In this document: one piece after another, positions 279-43,261 of the stretch | Layout of the letters: each line of letters begins with the position of its first letter | Position numbering within the stretch: position 1 is the first letter of the stretch | Assembly: GCA_025350465.1 (NCBI GenBank) | Contig: JANXXU010000008.1 | Location: 124,001-188,000, forward strand | DNA: 64,000 bases | Origin: Alphaproteobacteria bacterium | GTDB lineage: Bacteria > Pseudomonadota > Alphaproteobacteria > Micropepsales > Micropepsaceae | Direction of reading: 5' to 3' | Position numbers and translations under genes: made by a program | The notes under the pieces: generated by a model | What the model was told of the DNA's origin: nothing | What the model saw: only the letters and a program-made list of their open reading frames with translations | Databases searched by the model: none

Positions 279-703
279 TCGGCGCGCGCAGCAGCCCCTT
301 TTACCGGGAATATATGGATCACTATGCTCACGAACGTCTCGAAGACGCCCTCAAGGCGCTGGAGTGTGCCCTCACGTCCGCGTCAATTGATACCGAAGGC
401 GGCCGTTTGGAATTCGGCGCCCTAACCATCCAAAAGGGGACGCTCTTACATCGATTGTCGCGGCACTCGGAAGCAGCCGCGGCATTTGATCAAGCAGCGG
501 GCATGGTCGACCAACTCACATTTTCAGCTCACATGGCGACTTTCTATGCTCGTTTCGGAAACGATCCAATTCAGGCCGTGGCGCATGCAGGGCGAGTCCT
601 CGAAATTCTTGAAGCGAAACGGCAAAATGAATCGCTTGATGATGGCGATCAATATTATTTCCGCGCTGCGCTCGAGATAAAGCAGAAGGCCGGACACCGT
701 TAG
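269..703 (+). CDS. small alpha-helical repeat protein of unknown function
   Basis: A 144-residue soluble, acidic, helix-rich protein. Segments such as EDALKALECAL, HSEAAAAFDQAAGMV and AVAHAGRVLEILEAK have the spacing of tetratricopeptide-like helical pairs. There is no signal peptide, membrane segment or catalytic motif. An in-frame TAG at 257-259 limits the start to ATG 269 or ATG 275; the second gives an ATGA overlap with the stop of the preceding partial frame. The tight overlap suggests it works with the upstream protein, perhaps as a partner or protecting protein, but that is inference. The function is not recognised. Confidence 0.5.
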   Translation: MEMIGARSSPFYREYMDHYAHERLEDALKALECALTSASIDTEGGRLEFGALTIQKGTLLHRLSRHSEAAAAFDQAAGMVDQLTFSAHMATFYARFGNDPIQAVAHAGRVLEILEAKRQNESLDDGDQYYFRAALEIKQKAGHR

Positions 704-1022
704 AACAGGCGAGCGCATTTCCGTCGAACGACAGTGTGAGGTGCAGTGGTTGACCGCCACCTCCTACATGCGCCCAGCGGGCAAATATTCTTCGAGACTT
801 GACGAGGGCGGCATCGGCCCCTTGTTGGAGTCAACAATCATTGCGACGTATTTTGACGGCAGCAATAGCACGACATTGCATTAGCGGACTGAGAGTCCTG
901 AACAGTCCCCCAACCGCGCGTCCGTTCCGACTAGCCCATATTTGAGCGGTCTTTTGCGATCGCCTAATCTCGGTGGCGGGCCTCTCTGGAGCCGCGAAAT
1001 ATCAAACGGGGAAGGCCCACTC
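704..1022. other. intergenic region, nothing recognised
   Basis: About 320 bases between the helical-repeat gene and the P-loop NTPase gene. I see no convincing reading frame, RNA gene or strong hairpin. A GGGGAAGG stretch near 1009-1016 serves as the ribosome binding site of the next gene. Confidence 0.5.
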
Positions 1023-1616
1023 ATGAACGACACCGCAATTGAGGGAGACGATTATCAACCTCATCTCGTCGAGCAGAAGCGCAATCAGTTCGTCATGGTC
1101 TCGGGCTGCTCCGGCTCGGGGAAGTCGACGCTGCTCGCCGAGTTGGCACGCCGCGGCTTTCAAACATACGCCGAGCCCGGCCGCCAGATCGTCAAAGAAC
1201 AGCTGCATGTCGGTGGCGATGCGTTACCGTGGTTGAACCCGGCGAAATTCGTCGACTTCGTGATTTCCCGGGCGATGCATCAAATGGTGACGGCGGCGCG
1301 CAGCGATCGTGTTGCCTTCTTCGACCGCGGCATCGTCGACGCAGTGGCGGCACTGGAGCGCGTGAGCCTCCCGGCGCCGCCGCATCTCAAGAACGTGATC
1401 GAGAAGTATCGCTACAACGCCAAGGTCTTCCTCTCCCCGCCGTGGCCCGAGATCTTTCGCAACGACGCCGAGCGCCGTCACTCCTTCGACGAGGCCGTAG
1501 GCGAATTCAATGATCTTGAACGTGCGTACGCCCGGCGGGGTTACGAGTGCGTTCTTCTGCCCAAGGTCGACGTTAGCGCCCGCGCTGAGTTCGTCCTGAA
1601 CCTGCTGGCTTGCTGA
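1023..1616 (+). CDS. AAA-type ATP-binding protein (AAA_28-like P-loop NTPase)
   Basis: A 197-residue soluble protein with a clear Walker A motif GCSGSGKST at residues 28-36. A later FFDRGIVDAV segment fits the Walker B/lid region seen in small P-loop kinases and the AAA_28 family. Such proteins are usually single-domain nucleotide hydrolases or kinases with unknown substrates. The longer frame could begin at 942, but ATG 1023 follows a GGGGAAGG ribosome binding site and puts the P-loop near the N terminus, as is usual. It stands alone, with non-coding DNA on both sides, so context gives no substrate. Calling it a P-loop NTPase is safe; the exact role is unknown. Confidence 0.8.
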   Translation: MNDTAIEGDDYQPHLVEQKRNQFVMVSGCSGSGKSTLLAELARRGFQTYAEPGRQIVKEQLHVGGDALPWLNPAKFVDFVISRAMHQMVTAARSDRVAFFDRGIVDAVAALERVSLPAPPHLKNVIEKYRYNAKVFLSPPWPEIFRNDAERRHSFDEAVGEFNDLERAYARRGYECVLLPKVDVSARAEFVLNLLAC

Positions 1617-1727
1617 CGTCGGCCCATTTGGCCGATAAACAGCTCCCGCCATCATTCGCAGAATCGACTAGGGAGAGCCAAGGCACCTCGCGTTTTTTTG
1701 GAGCAGTCGTTTTGCAGAGTGCACGGA

Positions 1728-2123
1728 ATGAACAAGGCCTATTTCCACGTCCGGCAGAGCGTCATCGACGAAACCTATCTCACCAAGCTCGCCAAGGCAG
1801 GTGTGGGCGGCGGCGTGAAGCGGCTCGAGAAGCGTCTTGGCAAGGTGTTGGCCCGGCCTGAATCCTATTGGGAATCCGCCGTCGTCGAGTGGCACAGCGT
1901 CTTCGATGAAGCGCCGTTGAGAGCTATCGCGACGAACATCTCGGTCGCCGTGCGCCGCATCGGCCGGCCCGACGACCTGAACATTGCGTTGCATATTTCA
2001 GTTCACGTCGATTGGGATTTACCTCATACCGGTGTGCCGATGTCGCCCGACACGCTGCGCCTCCTGGCCGATTTGGAAGCCACGCTCGATATCGACATTG
2101 TGCCCAACCTCTCGCCGCCTTGA
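1728..2123 (+). CDS. hypothetical protein, possibly DUF4279-like
   Basis: A 131-residue protein starting at ATG 1728 (MNKAYFHVRQ); an upstream in-frame TTG at 1698 is less likely. No signal peptide or membrane helix. It begins with a beta strand followed by basic residues, has YWESAVVEWHS in the middle, and ends ALHISVHVDWDLPHTG then a Leu-rich helix and DIDIVPNL. This order (strand, W-containing middle, final helix and D-I-D-strand) recalls the DUF4279 family, but the match is from memory and weak. The base composition resembles neighbouring coding DNA. Confidence 0.45.
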   Translation: MNKAYFHVRQSVIDETYLTKLAKAGVGGGVKRLEKRLGKVLARPESYWESAVVEWHSVFDEAPLRAIATNISVAVRRIGRPDDLNIALHISVHVDWDLPHTGVPMSPDTLRLLADLEATLDIDIVPNLSPP

Positions 2124-2238
2124 GCGGAACTGAATTCCGGAGCCGCCTGTTAGCCATTGGAAAAGCCCGCGCTGTGCACTCTCGTTTAGGTCGTCTAACA
2201 TCACCATCCCAACGCCAACCGATTTGAGGTCCCCCGAA

Positions 2239-2667
2239 ATGCTGAAGTCACTCATCCTTGCGCTGAGCGCAATACTGGTGACTGCATTGCCGGCCGACGC
2301 GCACGGCGCCGTTGCCGTCGGCGGAAATCCGGCCGACGTCGCCAAGAACGGCATCGCCATAGGCATTTCGAAGGATGACGACACGAAAGAACTGGCGGAG
2401 GCCGGCGCCGTCGAACAATGCAAGGCTTTCCACGGCAAAAATCCGGCACAAACAGCGGCGCGTTGCGCAGTCGTCGCGAACTTCGATCACGCGTGGGCCG
2501 TCATCGCCATGGATCCAAAGCCTCAGTCGGCGGGCTTCGGCTGGTCCATCGATCCGGACAAGGCGACGGCGGAACGCAACGCCATGAACCAATGCAAGGC
2601 GAGCTCACCCGACGAGCGAAAGCGATTCTGCGCCCTGACCGGCGAACTGCAAGACACCAAGCCTTAG
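2239..2667 (+). CDS. exported DUF4189-type protein
   Basis: A 142-residue protein with an N-terminal signal peptide (MLKSLILALSAILVTALPADAHG, cleaved after about residue 20). The mature part has the DUF4189 pattern: GIAIGISKDDDTKELAEAGAVEQC, a pair of cysteines around QTAARCAVV, then a second similar unit with ATAERNAMNQC and KRFCALTG. The four cysteines probably form two disulfides in the periplasm. The start ATG 2239 is preceded by GAGG at 2226-2229; a TTG at 2224 is in frame but less likely. Function of this family is unknown; some members are secreted small proteins. It is a single-gene unit. Confidence 0.7.
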   Translation: MLKSLILALSAILVTALPADAHGAVAVGGNPADVAKNGIAIGISKDDDTKELAEAGAVEQCKAFHGKNPAQTAARCAVVANFDHAWAVIAMDPKPQSAGFGWSIDPDKATAERNAMNQCKASSPDERKRFCALTGELQDTKP

Positions 2668-2689
2668 CGCGCCACGCCCCCGCAGCTCT

Positions 2690-3370
2690 TCACCGCGTCG
2701 CCGATGGGTTCTCCGGTTCGGCGCCGCCGGCAAAGCGCGAGATCACGTAATACCGCATGTCGAAATCGGGCCTGTCGGCGACGATGTCGCCAAAGAAGGA
2801 AAAGCGCGTGTCTATCTTTTCAGGTGCCGAAGCGCGAAAGAACGCGAGGCCGAGGATTTGCATATCCGACGGGCCCTTCGCTGCGACGAACAAGACATTG
2901 CATTCTTGGGCGTAGGCGTCGCGGAAGAAGCCGTAGCTTCCCGTCTTTCGCTTGCTGCAGTGGATGAAGGCGATTGTCGCCGCGGCGCCCAGACTTGGCG
3001 CGCGCAAAGGGTCGGGCACAGTATCGTTGATCGAGTCGATCTGCTTGTTGTCGACATCGACGATCGCCACGGGACCCGCCAGAGCCAACGCCGGCTGCAA
3101 CTCGCTCGTACATTCGAGCGCCGGCTTGCCGCGCAAGACATCTTGAGCCAGTTCGGCGATATGCGTGGGCGTGCCGGCCTGACAGACCGGCGCTTCGAGC
3201 CCCGGAGCGATCCGGCCGGAGGCAGCCGCCTCGTCGACGCGCGCCGTCAATTTGTCGAAGCCCGCGATCTCTCCGCGCGAGCGGAATGGGACGCCGAGGA
3301 AGAAATAGTACCCGATCGCCGCGACCAGCAACACGACCAAGCTCGCGATCAAGATTTCGACTCTTGTCAT
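2690..3370 (-). CDS. membrane-anchored hypothetical protein
   Basis: A 226-residue protein with one N-terminal transmembrane helix (VEILIASLVVLLVAAIGYYFF), probably a signal anchor that leaves the rest in the periplasm. The remainder has four cysteines (around APVCQAG, LECTSE, FIHCSKR and QECNVLF) that could pair. No known domain is recognised. The start is ATG 3370; the frame also has a TTG two codons upstream. It converges on the DUF4189 gene, with a 22-base gap between the two stops. What it does cannot be told from the sequence. Confidence 0.6.
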   Translation of the reverse strand: MTRVEILIASLVVLLVAAIGYYFFLGVPFRSRGEIAGFDKLTARVDEAAASGRIAPGLEAPVCQAGTPTHIAELAQDVLRGKPALECTSELQPALALAGPVAIVDVDNKQIDSINDTVPDPLRAPSLGAAATIAFIHCSKRKTGSYGFFRDAYAQECNVLFVAAKGPSDMQILGLAFFRASAPEKIDTRFSFFGDIVADRPDFDMRYYVISRFAGGAEPENPSATR

Positions 3371-3577
3371 GGCCAATTTCTGCCGCCGCCCGGGAACGGG
3401 CTCGATGTTCGAGAATCATGATTGAGATTGGATTCTATCTTCCTTGCCGACGACGCGACGGGGCGAGCTCCCGCAGGCTCGTCGATTTGTCGCGCGATGT
3501 ATCAATTTCACGCCACGTTGATTCGGCGCGCAGGCGGCACCAATCCGCGCCGAACGACGCGCGCAAGGACGCGAGCG

Positions 3578-4354
3578 TCAACTCTTCAGCCGATATCCGG
3601 TCTTGAATATCCAACCGACGACGAGCAAGCACACGATGAAGAAGCCGAGCGTTGCCGCCAGGCTGATCTCAACGCCCACGTCGGACGTGCCGTAGAAGCT
3701 CCAGCGAAAGCCCGAGATCAGATAGACGACCGGATTGAAGAGCGCGATCGTCCGCCATGTCGGCGGCAGCATGCTGATCGAATAGAACGAGCCGCCGAGA
3801 AACGTCAGCGGCGTCACGATCAGCATCGGGATCATCTGCAGCTGCTCGAAGCCTTGCGCCCAGATGCCCAGGATAAAGCCGAAGAGGCTGAACGTCATCG
3901 ACGTCAGCACCAGAAACGCGATCATCCATTCCGGATGGAGAATGCGGATCGGCACGAAGAGCGACGCCGTCGTCAGGATCAATAGGCCCAGGATGATCGA
4001 TTTCGTCGCCGCTGCGCCGACATAGGCGACGACGATTTCGAGATAGGAGATCGGTGCCGACAGCAACTCATAGATCGTGCCGACGAATTTCGGGAAGTAG
4101 ATGCCGAACGAGCCGTTGAAGATGCTTTGCGTGAACAGTGAGAGCATAATGAGGCCCGGCACGATGAAAGAGCCGTACGGCACGCCGTCCACTTGCGTCA
4201 TGCGCGAACCGATGGCCGCGCCGAAGACGACAAAATAAAGCGACGTCGTCATGACGGGCGTGATGATGCTCTGCGTTATCGTGCGCAAGGCGCGCGCCAT
4301 CTCGAACTTATAGATCGCCCAGACGCTATGGCGGTTGAATGTCAATGCGTTCAT
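3578..4354 (-). CDS. ABC-2 type transporter permease
   Basis: A 258-residue inner-membrane protein with about six hydrophobic helices, typical in length and layout for the ABC-2 permease family used by drug, polysaccharide or Nod-factor exporters (NodJ-like). The second helix region [12 protein letters not shown] and the later [20 protein letters not shown] with PLTFLGG are characteristic of this family. Its ATG overlaps the stop of the ATP-binding gene by four bases (ATGA), so the two are translationally coupled and form one exporter. The substrate cannot be deduced. Confidence 0.9.
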
Positions 4355-5289
4355 GCCGTTGCTCCCGTGCGCTCGGTGACCAGGCTCACGAAGATGTCCT
4401 CGAGCGAGCTTTGCGTCGTATTCAAGTCTTTGAAGCCGACGCCGATGTCGGTGATCCGCCGCAACAGCGAAGGCACGCCGGTGCGCTCCGCGTTCGCATC
4501 GAAGGTGTACTCAAGCTCGTGGCCGCCGGCTTTCAGCATCAAGTGCCAATCGCCGAGCTCGGGCGGAATTTCCGTCATCGGCTCCTGCAGCACCAGCGTC
4601 AGCTGTTTCTTGCCGAGCTTCTTGATCAGCGTCGCTTTGTCCTCAACGAGGATGAGTTCGCCCTTGTTGATAACGCCGATGCGGTCGGCCATCTCCTCCG
4701 CTTCGTCGATGTAGTGCGTCGTCAAGATGATGGTGACGCCGTTGTCGCGCAGGCGGCGCACCAGCGCCCACATGTCGCGCCGCAATTCGACGTCGACGCC
4801 CGCGGTCGGCTCGTCCAGGAACAGGATCGTTGGCTCGTGGCTCAAAGCCTTCGCGATCATCACGCGCCGCTTCATGCCGCCCGACAATGTCTGCAGCTGG
4901 TCTTTGCGCCTGTCCCACAGCGAAAGGTCGCGCAAGATCCGCTCGACGTAAGCCTTGTCTGGCGCTCGGCCGAAAAGGCCGCGGCTGAACGTCGTTGTCG
5001 CCCACACCGTCTCGAAGCGATCGGTCGTGAGTTCCTGCGGCACAAGGCCGATCTTGGCGCGCGCCGGGCGGTAGTCGCGCTGAATCTCGTGGCCGTCGGC
5101 AAAGATCTCGCCGGACGACGGTGTCACGATGCCGCAAATGATGTTGATCAGCGTGGTCTTGCCGGCACCGTTTGGGCCCAGGAGGGCGAAAATCTCACCC
5201 TTGCGGATGTCCAGATTGATCGGCTTCAGCGCCTGCAATCCGGAGGCATATGTCTTGGTGACGTTCTTGATCGAGACGATAGGGGGCAT
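4351..5289 (-). CDS. ABC transporter ATP-binding protein (exporter type)
   Basis: A 312-residue cytoplasmic ATPase that powers the permease encoded just downstream. It has Walker [10 protein letters not shown] near residue 38, Q-loop VPQEL, signature [15 protein letters not shown] and Walker [13 protein letters not shown], followed by the switch His in [12 protein letters not shown]. The extra C-terminal 80 or so residues are usual in the CcmA/NodI/DrrA branch. The start is taken as ATG 5289; the frame can be extended one codon to TTG. Gene order ATPase then permease, with a four-base overlap, is standard. Confidence 0.93.
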
Positions 5290-37321: not shown

Positions 37322-39085
37322 ATGGCCACCCTCGCCCAAGAGCTGACCGAAACCGTTTCGCGCGCCTTCGCGGCTGAGGGGCTCGACCCCGCGCACGGCC
37401 GCGTCGCGGCTTCCGATCGCCCGGACCTCGCCCAGTTTCAAGTGAACGGCGCGATGGCTGCGGCCAAGGCCGCCAAGTCGAACCCAAAGGCCATCGCCGA
37501 GAAAATCGTCGCGCGCCTCAAAGACGACCCGCGCATCGCCAAGCTTGAGATCGCCGGCCCCGGCTTCATCAACATCTCGCTGACCGATGAGACGATCTCC
37601 AAGCACATCGACAAGCTGCGCGACGACCCGCGCGCCGGTGTTCCCAAGCGCGCCAAGCCGCAGACCGTGATCATCGACTTCGGCGGCCCGAACATCGCCA
37701 AGACCATGCATGTCGGCCACCTGCGCTCGCTGATCATCGGCGACGCGCTGCAGAAGCTGTTTCGCTTCGTCGGCGACAAGGTGATCTCCGACGTCCATTT
37801 CGGCGATTGGGGCCTGCAGATGGGCCAGCTGATCACCGAGGTCCAGCGCGAGCAGCCGGCGCTGCCCTATTTCGACGCGAGCTTCACGGGCCCCTATCCC
37901 AACCAATCGCCGGTGACGATGGAGGATTTGGAGGAAATTTATCCGCGCGCCTCCGCCGCGACCAAGGCCGACCCCGCGCGCCTCGATGAAGCGCGCAAGG
38001 CGACGGCCGAACTGCAAGCCGGCCGCCCCGGCTATCGCGCGCTCTGGCAGCACTTCCGCGCGGTCTCCTTCGAGGGCGTTCGGCGCGAGTTCGCCGCCCT
38101 CGGCGTCCATTTCGATTGGTGGAAGGGCGAAAGCGACGTCGACAAGCTCGTGGCGCCCATGGTTGCCGACCTCATGAAGCGCGGTATTGGGGTGGAGAGC
38201 GAAGGCGCGCTCGTCGTCTTCATCGCCGAGCCCGGCGACAAGAAAGAACTGCCGCCGCTGATCGTGCAGAAATCTGACGGCGCGGCGCTCTACGAGACGA
38301 CCGACCTCGCCACCATCATCGACCGCGTGAAGACCGCCGACCCCGATCTCATTCTCTACGTCGTCGGCCAGCCGCAGCACGACCATTTCGAAAAGGTCTT
38401 TCGCGGAGCGCGCAAAGCCGGCCTGAACGGCAAAGCGGTGCTCGAGCACGCGGGCTTCGGCACCGTCAACGGCCCCGACGGCAAACCCTTCCGCACCCGC
38501 GCCGGCGGCACGGTTAAGCTCTTCGACCTGATCGCGCAGGCGAAAGACGAAGCGCTGAAGCGCCTCACCGAAGCCGGCCTCGCGCAAGACTACCCGGCCG
38601 CCGAGCGCGAAGAGATCGCCCGCAAGACGGGCCTCGCCGCCATCAAATACGCCGACCTCTCCAACCAGCGCCTGACGAACTACGTCTTCGACCTGGCGCG
38701 CTTCACAAAATTCGAAGGCGAGACCGGCCCGTATCTGCAATACGCCGCAGTGCGGATTCAGTCGCTGTTGCGCAAAGCCGAAGACCAAGGCTTCAAACCC
38801 GGCCCCATCCGCATTGAGGATGCAGCCGAGCGTGACCTGGTGTTGCTGTTAGATCGGTTGCCCGACGCGATCGAAACGGCAATCGCCAAACGCGCTCCGA
38901 ACGTGCTCTCGGACCACGCTTTCACCATCGCTCAAGGCTTCAGCCGCTTCTACGCCGCCCACCACATTTTGAGCGAGACGAACGAGGTACTGCGTGGCTC
39001 CCGCCTTGCCGTGTGTCGCCTCGTGCTGACCCAATTCGCCGTCGTTTTAGGCCTATTAGGCATCGAAATACCCGAGCGAATGTGA
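37322..39085 (+). CDS. argS: arginyl-tRNA synthetase
   Basis: A 587-residue class I synthetase. The N-terminal tRNA-binding domain is followed by DFGGPNIAKTMHVGHLRS (HIGH-type motif), QMGQLITEVQ, then KSDGAALYETTDLATI, the family's atypical second motif region, and a C-terminal helical anticodon domain with ETGPYLQYAAVRIQSLLRK and FYAAHHIL. ATG 37322 is preferred over GTG 37283, which lies at the edge of the upstream repeat. No strong ribosome binding site is seen in front of it. Confidence 0.96.
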   Translation: MATLAQELTETVSRAFAAEGLDPAHGRVAASDRPDLAQFQVNGAMAAAKAAKSNPKAIAEKIVARLKDDPRIAKLEIAGPGFINISLTDETISKHIDKLRDDPRAGVPKRAKPQTVIIDFGGPNIAKTMHVGHLRSLIIGDALQKLFRFVGDKVISDVHFGDWGLQMGQLITEVQREQPALPYFDASFTGPYPNQSPVTMEDLEEIYPRASAATKADPARLDEARKATAELQAGRPGYRALWQHFRAVSFEGVRREFAALGVHFDWWKGESDVDKLVAPMVADLMKRGIGVESEGALVVFIAEPGDKKELPPLIVQKSDGAALYETTDLATIIDRVKTADPDLILYVVGQPQHDHFEKVFRGARKAGLNGKAVLEHAGFGTVNGPDGKPFRTRAGGTVKLFDLIAQAKDEALKRLTEAGLAQDYPAAEREEIARKTGLAAIKYADLSNQRLTNYVFDLARFTKFEGETGPYLQYAAVRIQSLLRKAEDQGFKPGPIRIEDAAERDLVLLLDRLPDAIETAIAKRAPNVLSDHAFTIAQGFSRFYAAHHILSETNEVLRGSRLAVCRLVLTQFAVVLGLLGIEIPERM

Positions 39086-39190
39086 GCGCTTGGTCCTAGA
39101 AAGCATCCGAACGCGCTGTTCTGCCTCGTAAATCAGGAGGGCGGCGCCCTATTCGCTCCAACTGTTGCACCGCGCCTTGCCTCCGTGTAT

Positions 39191-39210
39191 CCTTACGCCT
39201 TACTGTAAGG
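39191..39210. promoter_or_regulatory. inverted repeat in front of the AbrB/MazF-like pair
   Basis: CCTTAC at 39191-39196 and GTAAGG at 39205-39210 form an inverted repeat with an eight-base centre. It lies just before and partly over the ribosome binding site AAGGAGG of the antitoxin gene, so binding there could stop both transcription and access to the mRNA. It fits self-control by an AbrB-type antitoxin. Confidence 0.5.
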
Positions 39211-39221
39211 AGGGCGGTGCC

Positions 39222-39452
39222 ATGGGCGTCATCGCAAGTAAGATCACGGCCAAGGGTCAAACCACGATTCCCGCCGAAGTACGGGCGAAGCTGGGCCTGA
39301 AGCCCGGCGATGCGGTCGTCTATCGCCAGACGAAGGCAGGCGTCGTTATCCGCAAGGCCGGCGTCCTCGACGCCGAATTCCTGAAGTTGCAGGAACACGC
39401 GCTCAGCGACTGGTTGTCGCCGGAGGCTGACGAGGCCTTCCGTGACTTATAA
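39222..39452 (+). CDS. AbrB/MazE-like antitoxin
   Basis: A 76-residue DNA-binding antitoxin of the SpoVT/AbrB fold: MGVIASKITAKGQTTIPAEV and RAKLGLKPGDAVVYRQT, with an acidic C-terminal tail (DWLSPEADEAFRDL) that would bind the toxin. ATG 39222 follows AAGGAGG eight bases upstream. The stop overlaps the GTG start of the toxin gene by 11 bases. Confidence 0.88.
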   Translation: MGVIASKITAKGQTTIPAEVRAKLGLKPGDAVVYRQTKAGVVIRKAGVLDAEFLKLQEHALSDWLSPEADEAFRDL

Positions 39453-39777
39453 GCGGTGGGACATCGTCCGCCTGTCGTTTCCATATCTCGAAGGTCACGA
39501 CGCGAAGAAACGCCCGGCTCTGATCGTCTCGACCGAGGCTCTGGCCGCGAACCACCGTGTGATTTGGGCGGTGATGATTACCACCGCCAAAGGCGGAACC
39601 TTGCCGGAAGACATTCATGTCACCGACCCGCAAACCGTGGGCTTGGTTGAGGATTGCGTCATCCGCCCTTCGCGCTTGTTCACGATCTCGGCTGACTTGG
39701 TGGATCGCAGACTCGGCGCGGTCAAACCCCGCGACCGCAGCGCCGTGACGGCATTCCTGAAGAAATACGTGCCTTAG
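39442..39777 (+). CDS. MazF/PemK-like toxin (endoribonuclease)
   Basis: A 111-residue PemK/MazF-family protein: YKRWDIVRLSFPYLEGHD, KKRPALIVSTEALA, VIWAVMITTAKGG, and the CVIRPSRLFTISADLVDRR segment. Members cut mRNA when free of antitoxin. GTG 39442 overlaps the antitoxin frame; translation is coupled. The pair is a type II toxin-antitoxin module on its own between argS and the gcv riboswitch. Confidence 0.85.
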   Translation: MTYKRWDIVRLSFPYLEGHDAKKRPALIVSTEALAANHRVIWAVMITTAKGGTLPEDIHVTDPQTVGLVEDCVIRPSRLFTISADLVDRRLGAVKPRDRSAVTAFLKKYVP

Positions 39778-39889
39778 GCGTCTGGCCCCCAATTCCTGCT
39801 GCCCTCCCGCGTTGACTCATGCCCCCCGCCCCCTATCATCCGCCCTAACGGCCGGGCCCGCCGGGAGGGCGCGCGCGGCTGGCGATACA

Positions 39890-40133
39890 ATCGACCCCTT
39901 GCGGGAGAGTGCGGGCCGCCCGGATTGCCTCCGGAGCGAAGTCCGCCGCCGAAGGAGCAACCGCCCTGGAAACTCTCAGGCCACCGGGACCGCAAAGGCG
40001 ATGACAGTCTGGAAAGCGAACGGCCGCGCCTGAGACAAGAGCGCTGCGTTCCACCGACGGGGTAGGCGAGGGCCGCGACGCGCGGCGAATCGCGAAATCT
40101 CTCAGGTCCCAATGACAGGCAGGGGCTCTCGTA
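39890..40133 (+). ncRNA. tandem glycine riboswitch upstream of gcvT
   Basis: Two glycine-aptamer-like units are visible. Unit 1 runs from GCGGGAGAGTG (about 39900) through GCCGAAGGAGCAACCGCCC, GGAAACTCTCAGGCCACC and GGACCGCAAAGGCGATGACA to CTGG (about 40015). Unit 2 runs from AAGAGCGCTGCG (about 40038) through ACCGACGGGGTAGGCGAGG and CGAAATCTCTCAGGTCCC with AATGACAGGCAGGGGCTCTC (about 40131). The gapped marker CTCTCAGG..CC..ATGACAG appears in both. It lies directly before the glycine cleavage genes it would turn on when glycine is high. Confidence 0.92.
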
Positions 40134-40158
40134 ACACTCACTTCGAGTGTGACGAGAG
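40126..40158 (+). promoter_or_regulatory. hairpin at the end of the glycine riboswitch (expression platform)
   Basis: CTCTCGT at 40126-40132 pairs with ACGAGAG at 40152-40158, and CACTC with GAGTG inside. The left arm overlaps the last bases of the second aptamer, so ligand binding would compete with this stem. No T-run follows, so it may act other than as an intrinsic terminator. Confidence 0.65.
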
Positions 40159-40185
40159 CGAATCCAACCCTGATGGGACTGAGAC

Positions 40186-41352
40186 ATGGCCGAACCGGCA
40201 GCCGCCGAACATCTGAAACGCACGCCGATTTACGCGCTCAACGTCGAGCTCGGCGGAAAAATCGTGCCGTTCGCGGGTTACGAAATGCCGGTCCAATTCC
40301 CACAAGGCATTCTGAAAGAGCATCTGCACACGCGCGCCGCCGCTGGCCTCTTCGACGTCTCGCATATGGGCCAGGCATTCTTGCGTCTGGAGAATGCGAG
40401 CGGCGACGTCGACACGCGCCACGATGCGATCGCCGGCCTCATCGAAACGCTGGTGCCCGGCGAGATCAAAGGTCTGAAGCCCGGCCAGATCCGCTACACG
40501 CTTTTGCTCAACGATCAAGGCGGTATCCGCGACGACCTGATGGTCACGCGCCCCGCCGATCCAAAATTTGCCGGCACGTTGTTTCTCGTCGTCAACGCAG
40601 GGACGAAGGATGCCGACTTCGCGCACATCGCGGCAAAGCTGAAAGGCCGCGCGCGGCTCGACCGGCTCGAGGATCAGGCGCTGATTGCGTTGCAAGGTCC
40701 GAAAGCGGCCAAGGTGCTGGAGCGCGTTCTGCCCGGCGTTGCGGCGATGAGCTTCATGACCATCGCGCCGTTCACCTGGGAGCGCGCGCAGCTGTTCGTT
40801 TCGCGCTCCGGCTACACGGGCGAGGACGGTTACGAAATCACATTGCCCGGAAATATCGCCGTTCCATTCGCGCGGGTGCTGCTGGCCGATAACGACGTTG
40901 CCCCCATCGGCCTGGGCGCGCGCGACTCGCTCAGGCTGGAGGCGGGGCTCTGCCTCTACGGCCACGACATCGATGAAACGACGACGCCGGTCGAAGCAAA
41001 CCTCACCTGGGCGATCGGCAAGCGCCGCAAGATGGAAAAGAATTTTCCCGCCGCCGACATTATCATGGGCCAGCTCTTCGACGGCGCGAAACGCCTGCGC
41101 GTCGGCGTCAAGCCCGACGGCCGCGCCCCGGCGCGCGAAGGCACCGAAATCGTCGACGCGAACGGCGCAATCGTCGGCCGCATCACCTCCGGCGGCTTCG
41201 GCCCCAGCGTCAACGGCCCCATCGCCATGGGCTATGTGCGCCCCGATCTCGCCAAAGACGGCACACCCCTCGGCCTCGTCGTGCGCGGGCAAACGCTACC
41301 CGCCCGCGTCGCGCCGATGCCCTTCATCCCCAAGCGGTTTCACAAGCCATGA
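40186..41352 (+). CDS. gcvT: aminomethyltransferase (glycine cleavage T protein)
   Basis: A 388-residue folate-dependent enzyme that releases ammonia and makes methylene-tetrahydrofolate from the lipoyl-bound aminomethyl group. Marks: LGGKIVPFAGYEMPVQF, AAGLFDVSHMGQA, SRSGYTGEDGYEITLPG, LEAGLCLYGHDIDE (catalytic Asp region upstream) and GRITSGGFGPSVNGPIAMGYV. It is the first gene behind the riboswitch and is followed by a repeat before gcvH. Confidence 0.97.
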   Translation: MAEPAAAEHLKRTPIYALNVELGGKIVPFAGYEMPVQFPQGILKEHLHTRAAAGLFDVSHMGQAFLRLENASGDVDTRHDAIAGLIETLVPGEIKGLKPGQIRYTLLLNDQGGIRDDLMVTRPADPKFAGTLFLVVNAGTKDADFAHIAAKLKGRARLDRLEDQALIALQGPKAAKVLERVLPGVAAMSFMTIAPFTWERAQLFVSRSGYTGEDGYEITLPGNIAVPFARVLLADNDVAPIGLGARDSLRLEAGLCLYGHDIDETTTPVEANLTWAIGKRRKMEKNFPAADIIMGQLFDGAKRLRVGVKPDGRAPAREGTEIVDANGAIVGRITSGGFGPSVNGPIAMGYVRPDLAKDGTPLGLVVRGQTLPARVAPMPFIPKRFHKP

Positions 41353-41376
41353 CGCGCGAAACGCAGTTCTCCTTTT

Positions 41377-41489
41377 CCTCCCCCGCAAGCGGGGGAGGGG
41401 GACCGCGTAGCGGTGGAGGGGGCGCTGAGCCGCCACTTCCCCCCTCCGTCGTCGCTGCGCTCCGACACCTCCCCCGCTTGCGGGGGAGG
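41377..41489. repeat. composite palindromic repeat between gcvT and gcvH
   Basis: Perfect hairpin CCTCCCCCGC/GCGGGGGAGG at 41377-41398 and an inverted second copy at 41468-41489 flank a short linker (ACCGCGTAGCGGTGGAGGG and TCGTCGCTGCGCTCCGAC), so the whole is one large palindrome of the type often seen between alphaproteobacterial genes. It lies inside the gcv transcription unit. Confidence 0.8.
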
Positions 41490-41533
41490 AAAGGCACGCG
41501 CGCCACCCAGATTTCATCAGCACACGGACAAAG

Positions 41534-41911
41534 ATGATGATCGAGACCAGATACACCAAAGACCACGAATGGGTGCGCCTCGACGGCGGCATCGCCACCA
41601 TCGGCATCACCGACTACGCCGCCGAGCAACTCGGCGACGTCGTCTTCGTCGAGTTGCCCAAAGTCGGCAAGGCGATCGAGAAGGGCGGCGAGGCGGCGGT
41701 CGTCGAAAGCGTCAAGGCCGCGTCCGAAGTCTACGCGCCGATCGCCGGCGAAGTCGTCGAGGTCAACAGCGCCATCGAAGGCGAGCCCGCGAACGTGAAC
41801 GCCGAACCGATGGGCGCCGGCTGGTTCATCAAATTGAAGGTCAAGAACGCGGCCGAGGTCGGCGCGCTCATGACCGAAGCGCAATACCGCGACTATTTGA
41901 AAGGCCTGTAA
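41534..41911 (+). CDS. gcvH: glycine cleavage H protein
   Basis: A 125-residue carrier whose lipoylated lysine is Lys 61, in GEAAVVESVKAASEVYAPI. KDHEWVRLDG at the start and GWFIKLKVKNAAE at the end are family-typical. It shuttles the aminomethyl group between the P, T and L proteins. Start ATG 41534 with a second ATG next to it. gcvPA begins four bases later. Confidence 0.97.
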   Translation: MMIETRYTKDHEWVRLDGGIATIGITDYAAEQLGDVVFVELPKVGKAIEKGGEAAVVESVKAASEVYAPIAGEVVEVNSAIEGEPANVNAEPMGAGWFIKLKVKNAAEVGALMTEAQYRDYLKGL

Positions 41912-41914
41912 GCC

Positions 41915-43261
41915 ATGCGTTATCTGCCGCTGACCGAAACCGATCGCCGCACGATGCTGGGCGTCGTCGGCGCCAAGTCCGTCGATGATCTCTTCCGCGA
42001 TGTTCCGCGTGAGGCGTATCTCACAACGCTCGTCGATCTGCCGATGCACGCCGGCGAGATCGAGGTCGAGCGCGAATTGGCGAAGCTCGCCAACCGCAAC
42101 GTGGCGGCAGGCTCTGTGCCCTTCTTCGTCGGCGCCGGCGCTTACCGACATCACGTGCCGGCTTCGGTCGATCATCTGATTCAGCGCTCGGAGTTCTTGA
42201 CCTCTTATACGCCGTACCAGCCCGAGATCGCGCAAGGCACGCTGCAATATCTCTTCGAATTCCAGACCCAAGTCGCGATGCTGACCGGCATGGAGGTGGC
42301 AAACGCCTCGATGTACGACGGCTCGACGGCCGCGACCGAAGCGGTGCTGATGGCCGCGCGCGTCACCGGCAAAAAACGCATCGTGCTCTCCGGCAATCTG
42401 CATCCCCATTACGCCGAGACCATTCGCACGACGGCCGAGACCGCGGGCCTCGAGATCGTCACCGGCAAAGCGGCGGCGGGCATGGGCGAAACCGCCGACC
42501 ACCTTCTCGACGACAACACCGCGTGTCTGGTCGTGCAGAACCCGGATTTTTTTGGGAGCTTGCGCGATCTGACGCCCTTGTCCGACGCGGCGCACACCAA
42601 AGGCGCGCTGCTCGTTGCGGTGGTGACGGAGATCGTCTCGCTCGGCAGCGTCACGCCGCCTGGCGAAATGGGCGCCGACATCGTTGCTGCCGAGGGCCAA
42701 TCGATCGGCAACGCGCTGAACTTTGGCGGACCTTACGTCGGCCTCTTCGCCACGCGCTCCAAATTTGTACGCCAGATGCCGGGCCGACTTGTCGGCGAGA
42801 CAGTCGACGCCGAAGGGCGGCGCGGTTACGTGCTGACGCTCTCGACGCGCGAACAACACATCCGCCGCGACAAGGCGACGAGCAACATCTGCACGAATTC
42901 CGGCCTCTGCTGCCTCGCCTTCACGATCCATCTGGCCTTGTTGGGTGAGGATGGCTTCCACAAGCTCGCCGGGCTCAACCACGAACGCGCGGTGATGACC
43001 GCCGACCGCCTTGCCAAGATCCACGGCGTCGAAGTCCTGACGCCGAGCTTCTTCAACGAATTCACCGTGAAGCTCTCCAAGCCCGCTGCCGAAGTCGTTG
43101 AAAAACTGACCAAGGAAAACGTGCTCGGCGGCGTACCCGTTTCGCGTCTAATGCCGCACGACAAATCGATGGGGAACCTTCTCATCGTCGCCGCGACCGA
43201 ACTGACGACGCCCTCCGACATCGAGGCCTTCGCCACCGCCCTGACAAAGGTGCTCGCGTGA
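41915..43261 (+). CDS. gcvPA: glycine dehydrogenase (decarboxylating) subunit 1
   Basis: A 448-residue alpha half of the split P protein. [60 protein letters not shown], and [18 protein letters not shown] are classic. It has no PLP lysine; the beta subunit brings this. AAAGG ten bases before the ATG serves as ribosome binding site. Cotranscribed with gcvH. Confidence 0.97.

Follow-up and report, generated by a model that had tools for sequence, protein, structure and literature searches.

The gcvT locus and its tandem aptamers

The stretch of DNA analysed here, hereafter the window, comprises 64,000 nucleotides (positions 124001-188000 of its contig) of a genome of 4.06 Mb in 52 contigs. It carries gcvT (40186..41352, + strand, ATG at 40186), encoding an aminomethyltransferase of 388 aa (PF01571, E 2e-74; PF08669, E 5.4e-20), and, as the next gene, gcvH (41534..41911, + strand; PF01597, E 4.2e-45). 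A pair of matches to the glycine riboswitch family RF00504 sits upstream of gcvT on the same strand, and the domain search places GCV_T directly downstream of the pair, followed by GCV_H. The closest GcvT among the named loci listed is that of an uncultured alphaproteobacterium (contig CADEFU010000003.1, 80% identity), and the names of the other loci listed are presumably mostly alphaproteobacterial. The candidate sigma-70-like promoter at 39812..39839 (+ strand; TTGACT-16 nt-TATCAT, 10/12 consensus matches), 53 nt upstream of aptamer 1, is a weak one, because the single match found in 39000-43000 compares with 0.6 expected by chance. Genes for a MazE-like antitoxin and a PemK/MazF-like toxin (39204-39777) lie on the same strand directly 5' of the riboswitch. 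Between gcvT and gcvH there are two CTCCCCCGC-NN-GCGGGGGAG palindromes (41378-41397 and 41469-41488), for which 100 shuffles of the window gave a mean of 0.

The two aptamers are the only RF00504 matches in the whole genome, and both exceed the family cut-off in the genome-wide search, aptamer 1 (39892..40002, + strand) with 59.2 bits and E 1.1e-9, and aptamer 2 (39999..40128, + strand) with 34.6 bits. The two matches have 4 nt in common, and when the window or 39850-40250 was scanned, only the better of them was returned. When aptamer 2 was scanned apart (40003-40190), the match covered 40004-40128 with 28.2 bits (E 4.6e-4), against a gathering score of 32 bits. Relative to the family model, the P2 and P3 arms of aptamer 2 are enlarged, and its score is lower. 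The original prediction had found both aptamers of a tandem glycine riboswitch readable, and on these scores both are real, forming a tandem RF00504 riboswitch before gcvT with predicted binding of glycine.

Covariance alignment places P1 of aptamer 2 at GTCTG 40007-40011 and CAGGC 40116..40120 (3' strand, + strand). Another candidate for the 5' strand of P1, CCTGAGAC at 40029-40036, was ruled out by the same alignment and falls within the enlarged P2 arm. Alignment and fold together mark CTCTCAGGTCCC (40099..40110, + strand), which spans the conserved core and J3/1 of aptamer 2, as a candidate switching strand. By eye, a P0/kink-turn stem could be formed by ATCG (39890-39893) with CGAT from the aptamer junction.

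An aptamer-2 strand complementary to the gcvT start

Immediately before gcvT lies GGGACTGAGAC (40175..40185, + strand), the last base of which directly precedes the ATG and which is the complement of the aptamer-2 core and appears to be a weak ribosome-entry region. The sole Shine-Dalgarno-like run noticed in it is GGGA (40175-40178), 7 nt ahead of the AUG and probably weak, in keeping with the earlier remark that gcvT lacks a strong ribosome binding site. The core strand CUCUCAGGUCCC (40099-40110) is complementary to GGGACUGAGAC (40175-40185), with pairing up to 40184. In the minimum-energy fold of 40090-40200, 40100-40105 (UCUCAG) pairs with 40179-40184 (CUGAGA), 40107-40111 (UCCCA) with 40174-40178 (UGGGA), and CAGG 40116-40119 of the P1 3' strand with CCUG 40169-40172. 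The energy of this fold is -49.3 kcal/mol, compared with -31.6 (sd 3.3) for shuffled sequences (z -5.4), and none of 200 shuffles was as good. Complementarity of this degree is not confined to the native site, since of the 12779 30-mers sampled from the window, 21 match it in pairing with the aptamer-2 core.

Enclosed by the core-to-start pairing is a strong hairpin at 40125..40159 (+ strand) of 8 + 6 pairs, in which GCTCTCGT (40125-40132) and ACGAGAGC (40152-40159) form the outer stem and ACACTC/GAGTGT the inner one. The long hairpin that had been described as starting from the end of aptamer 2, at 40126-40158, is thus borne out and slightly longer. Its lack of a T-run also holds: the sequence 3' of it is GAATCCAACC, and a terminator scan found neither a T-run nor a terminator-like site between aptamer 2 and gcvT. 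The mark of a glycine switch that works through an intrinsic terminator, a hairpin with a T-run behind it ahead of the gene, does not occur here, and intrinsic termination at this hairpin was rejected for want of a T-run.

The conserved core of aptamer 2 and its J3/1 both lie in the strand 40099-40110, which is therefore unable to serve both folds, and in the predicted folds its pairing with the bases before the start excludes the aptamer. In an ON-like fold, with aptamer-2 P1 enforced and J3/1 open, the mean unpaired probability of 40172-40188 rises from 0.27 to 0.74. Both folds, OFF and ON-like, are predicted to contain the hairpin, which makes it an arm of the structure and not the switch itself. 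GGG 40175-40177, the centre of the weak ribosome site, remains paired in the ON-like fold (unpaired probability 0.01-0.03), as one side of a hairpin of three pairs whose other side is CCC 40168-40170. Over 40003-40200 the unconstrained OFF fold is calculated at -86.1 kcal/mol and the ON-like fold at -75.8, a gap of about 10 that would have to be met by the ligand, by tertiary contacts and by the order of folding.

Pairing and covariation in related leaders

RF00504 matches occur in 82 of 96 genomes of the same family, and an order-level sample (n 300, completeness >=85) gave 78 genomes, all of the same family. Under stricter filters 5 of 11 genomes of the window's genus, the window's included, have a match; true absence of the riboswitch from some genomes of the genus is possible, because one genome without a match (G090) is 92% complete. 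The family set was drawn from 79 of the 82 matching genomes (G020, G021 and G061 were left out) and comprised 82 loci (L001-L082), which were reduced to 78 distinct gcvT leaders by dropping L002 (the same place as L001), L069 (the leader of L068), and L013 and L082 (no gcvT). A recurrent pattern in these leaders is CTCTCAGGTCCN followed by NGGACC before the start codon, and comparable GGACC-type elements are found in relatives.

Expected pairs were scored between the first 24 nt from the aptamer-2 core and positions -20..-1. The mean was 12.7 in the 78 leaders and 2.8 in shuffles, and at least five such pairs were present in 76/78 leaders as against 22% of 780 shuffles. Almost devoid of this pairing are L054 and L076. 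Start codons were chosen by rule; for L063 and L076 this gave a GTG upstream of an ATG that is preceded by GGACC, so that the exceptions presented by these two may be artefacts. The mean duplex energy of native pairs, -10.96 kcal/mol, compares with -10.20 when partners were swapped between species (sd 0.15, best of 200 -10.77) and -7.64 when they were shuffled.

Covariation was assessed in a register defined by five pairs of the core lying no more than 8 nt from the chosen start; this register was found in 62/78 leaders and in 753/7800 shuffled upstream sequences, and fails in the remaining 16/78. At one site outside the register-setting pairs, N12, the bases pair in 44 of the 62 leaders (22 C-G, 19 G-C, 2 A-T, 1 T-A) and are unpaired in 18/62; the permutation mean is 26.0, and 0/5000 permutations reach 44. 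With six slid partners as controls, the observed number was equalled or exceeded in 357 to 4982 of 5000 permutations, and a looser register gives a similar figure (44/63 paired, against 26.5). The site after N12 is weak (25/62 against 22.5, a value reached by 409/5000 permutations). For a tree-aware test a GcvT tree of 75 proteins was built and 59 leaders were used; on it there are at least 17 changes of the 5' base and at least 11 of the 3' base. The test is underpowered, with 5 independent pairs on supported branches, of which 2-3 agree and 0-1 oppose (median p 0.25), and a companion test on the 3' G had 0-1 informative pairs (p 1). These results are suggestive of covariation between the aptamer-2 core and the start region, to which shared descent may contribute.

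Beyond the family, 71 leaders were scored among the 80 named loci listed, with L088 left out as having the same leader as L033, L105, L143, L147, L165 and L167 for lack of a usable start, and L140, L146 and L148 for lack of an aptamer core in range. Among the leaders listed and scored, 59/71 had at least five expected pairs, compared with 30% of shuffles (mean 10.2 against 3.6), a count that is only approximate because starts and cores were sometimes wrongly picked and not all names are alphaproteobacterial. Both were picked by rule, and the upstream core was taken in, for example, L124, L128, L152, L158, L160, L163 and L166. At least 9/71 names are unspecific or not alphaproteobacterial: Marinimicrobia (L089, L093, L096, L123), an uncultured bacterium (L094) and Proteobacteria (L118, L125, L153, L164).

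Further glycine riboswitches in relatives

Two genomes, G017 and G052, have 8 aptamer matches each. Further glycine riboswitches in them (L013, and L168, L170 and L171) precede genes for Gly_transporter (PF03458) and serine dehydratase (PF03313, PF03315). Tandem glycine riboswitches also stand before genes for TonB-dependent-receptor Plug domains at L169 (G017), L087 (G052), L172 (G032) and L173 (G033), the genes starting 190-284 nt after the aptamer-2 core; the domain of L173 was found in the overlapping locus L082. In the parts of the riboswitch literature covered here, TonB-dependent receptors are linked to cobalamin switches. Just after the riboswitch each of these four loci has a frame of six codons behind a AAAGGCGC or GAGAGGCGC stretch (MIDRTF, MANRKP, MDPGQI and MKPAEH); that of L169 is given as the end of a 16-codon frame. 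These short frames are possibly leader peptides under riboswitch control.

Comparison with described glycine riboswitches

The tandem glycine riboswitch of Bacillus subtilis gcvT is an ON switch before glycine-cleavage genes that acts at an intrinsic terminator. It shares its position before glycine-cleavage genes with the riboswitch of the window, in which, however, an intrinsic terminator was not found. In the family, 9/78 leaders have 6 T in 8 between aptamer 2 and the start codon and 13/78 a run of at least 4 T, the position of any hairpin being disregarded.

A much closer parallel is found in Neisseria gonorrhoeae, and what follows is limited to the parts of the report that were covered (PMC13104608). 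There glycine induces GcvT through what is reported to be a translational ON switch, in which a predicted OFF hairpin joins a segment of aptamer 2 to positions -1 to -11. Changing TGAG at -5 to -2 raised GcvT 3-fold without glycine and left the mutant responsive to glycine, whereas a change at -10 to -1 raised GcvT without glycine and largely abolished the response; in a shortened leader, inhibition was relieved by altering the CTCAGG of the aptamer-2 core. The response to glycine persists under bicyclomycin and is kept by a gfp fusion, and the same excerpts describe a P5-type poly-C/poly-G pseudoknot (PMC13104608). Tandem aptamers, predicted pairing between aptamer 2 and the start, and the lack of a predicted Rho-independent terminator are common to the two systems, as is a TGAGA complement, which in the window occupies -6 to -2. 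The complement reads AAACTTGAGA in N. gonorrhoeae and GGGACTGAGAC in the window, where, unlike in N. gonorrhoeae, J3/1 (UCCC) and the P1 3' strand also take part in the pairing and a strong inner hairpin is present; the site in N. gonorrhoeae is additionally targeted by sibling sRNAs (PMC13104608, in the parts covered). The proposed switch of the window would be a further case of a mechanism already published for N. gonorrhoeae gcvT.

In the Alphaproteobacteria, the covered portions of the respective papers report a predicted glycine riboswitch before gcvT, in the same type of operon, from Gluconobacter oxydans (PMC5756330) and Magnetospirillum gryphiswaldense (PMC9549626), and the same element in Pelagibacter (PMC2704228, PMC5069720). 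The parts covered of these four papers describe no pairing with the start codon, and no alphaproteobacterial description of such a platform was found in the open-licence literature searched, to the extent that its texts were covered. Proteobacteria prefer translational platforms, according to passages of two further papers (PMC6944388, PMC12452182). The original prediction had called the expression platform unusual, a view that finds no support: since the layout recurs in the family leaders (76/78), in the named leaders listed (59/71) and in N. gonorrhoeae, the platform is ordinary for its group.

Proposed mechanism and alternatives

In the proposed mechanism, the aptamer-2 strand CUCUCAGGUCCC (core and J3/1) and the P1 3' strand would pair, without glycine, with CCUGAUGGGACUGAGA before the gcvT AUG. 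The OFF state would then be a single long hairpin, with the 40125-40159 arm inside it and the ribosome-entry region masked. With glycine bound, aptamer 2 would retain the strand of core and J3/1, and the bases before the AUG would for the most part be freed. Glycine would thus drive the exchange, the point of control would be the initiation of translation, and the direction would be ON. The switch proposed is probably the core-to-start pairing and not the hairpin alone, and without a terminator translation is the likely level of control. Translation had been among the modes named in the original prediction, beside Rho and RNA decay, and that much of it stands; what it overlooked is the core complement beside the start codon.

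That the tandem glycine riboswitch switches translation of gcvT ON is given a probability of about 0.76, on the strength of the fold (z -5.4), the pairing across the family, the covariation at N12, the lack of a terminator and the precedent in Neisseria. Several observations count against this reading: the pairing of GGG 40175-40177 in the ON-like fold and the advantage of about 10 kcal/mol of the OFF fold; the unpaired N12 in 18/62 leaders, the 16/78 leaders without the register and the exceptions L054 and L076; the 21/12779 30-mers and the underpowered tree test; the excess of leader RNA in Gluconobacter, discussed below; and the persisting glycine response of the N. gonorrhoeae -5..-2 mutant. 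The broader proposal, that across the family, and more loosely in the Alphaproteobacteria, the ribosome-entry stretch before gcvT evolved as the complement of the aptamer-2 core (AGGUCCN/NGGACC) and replaced a canonical Shine-Dalgarno sequence, is one for which the odds seem only just better than even.

The main rival is a Rho-type effect, acting alone or atop the translational switch, by which an untranslated gcvT would lead to a Rho stop in the leader or the early gene. It owes this place to RNA-seq data from Gluconobacter oxydans, where, in the part of the study covered, gcvT leader RNA stands 60-fold above the downstream genes (PMC5756330), an excess compatible with decay or an early stop of transcription, which might follow from gcvT going untranslated. 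The lack of an intrinsic terminator-like site between aptamer 2 and gcvT is compatible with it, and such coupling has been described for other translational riboswitches, although bicyclomycin left the N. gonorrhoeae response in place (both from the covered parts of PMC13104608). In the window, a scan for C over G gave what we judge not to be a clear rut-like stretch, the best 78-nt window having 41% C and 31% G within the leader and 38% C and 23% G, at 40288, in 39840-40700. Rho alone would also leave the conserved complement abutting the start codon unexplained, and on balance Rho-dependent control is unlikely.

RNA decay is a mode of control in other riboswitches, and here the OFF fold would expose or hide an RNase site. 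The Gluconobacter leader excess would fit this as well (PMC5756330, in the part covered), but the conserved element abuts the start codon, and control by decay is very improbable. That the 40125-40159 hairpin acts as an intrinsic terminator with a non-canonical tail is a reading that could draw on the strength of that hairpin, on its place between aptamer and gene and on the same Gluconobacter excess (PMC5756330, likewise in part), yet it is scarcely credible given the GAATCCAACC tail, in which the terminator scan had no match, and the minority of family leaders with T-rich stretches. Equally hard to credit is a degenerate riboswitch whose complement is due to chance or is mere ribosome-binding sequence, for which the 28.2 bits of aptamer 2 scanned apart and the equally well pairing 30-mers of the window speak, but against which stand the pairing in 76/78 leaders compared with 22% of shuffles, the covariation at N12 and the probably poor performance of GGACC as a Shine-Dalgarno sequence.

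Implications

If the broader proposal is correct, the moving part of the riboswitch would be the strand of the binding core itself and not P1 alone, and the J3/1 bases of the aptamer would evolve in concert with the gene's start region. What had been a vague notion of an unusual platform becomes one base-pairing model that can be tested. The leaders assembled here offer many natural variants, some of them covarying, for study of the joint evolution of ligand-binding core and start region. They suggest widespread use, ahead of gcvT in the Alphaproteobacteria, of a mechanism that was reported in 2026 for a single Neisseria operon.
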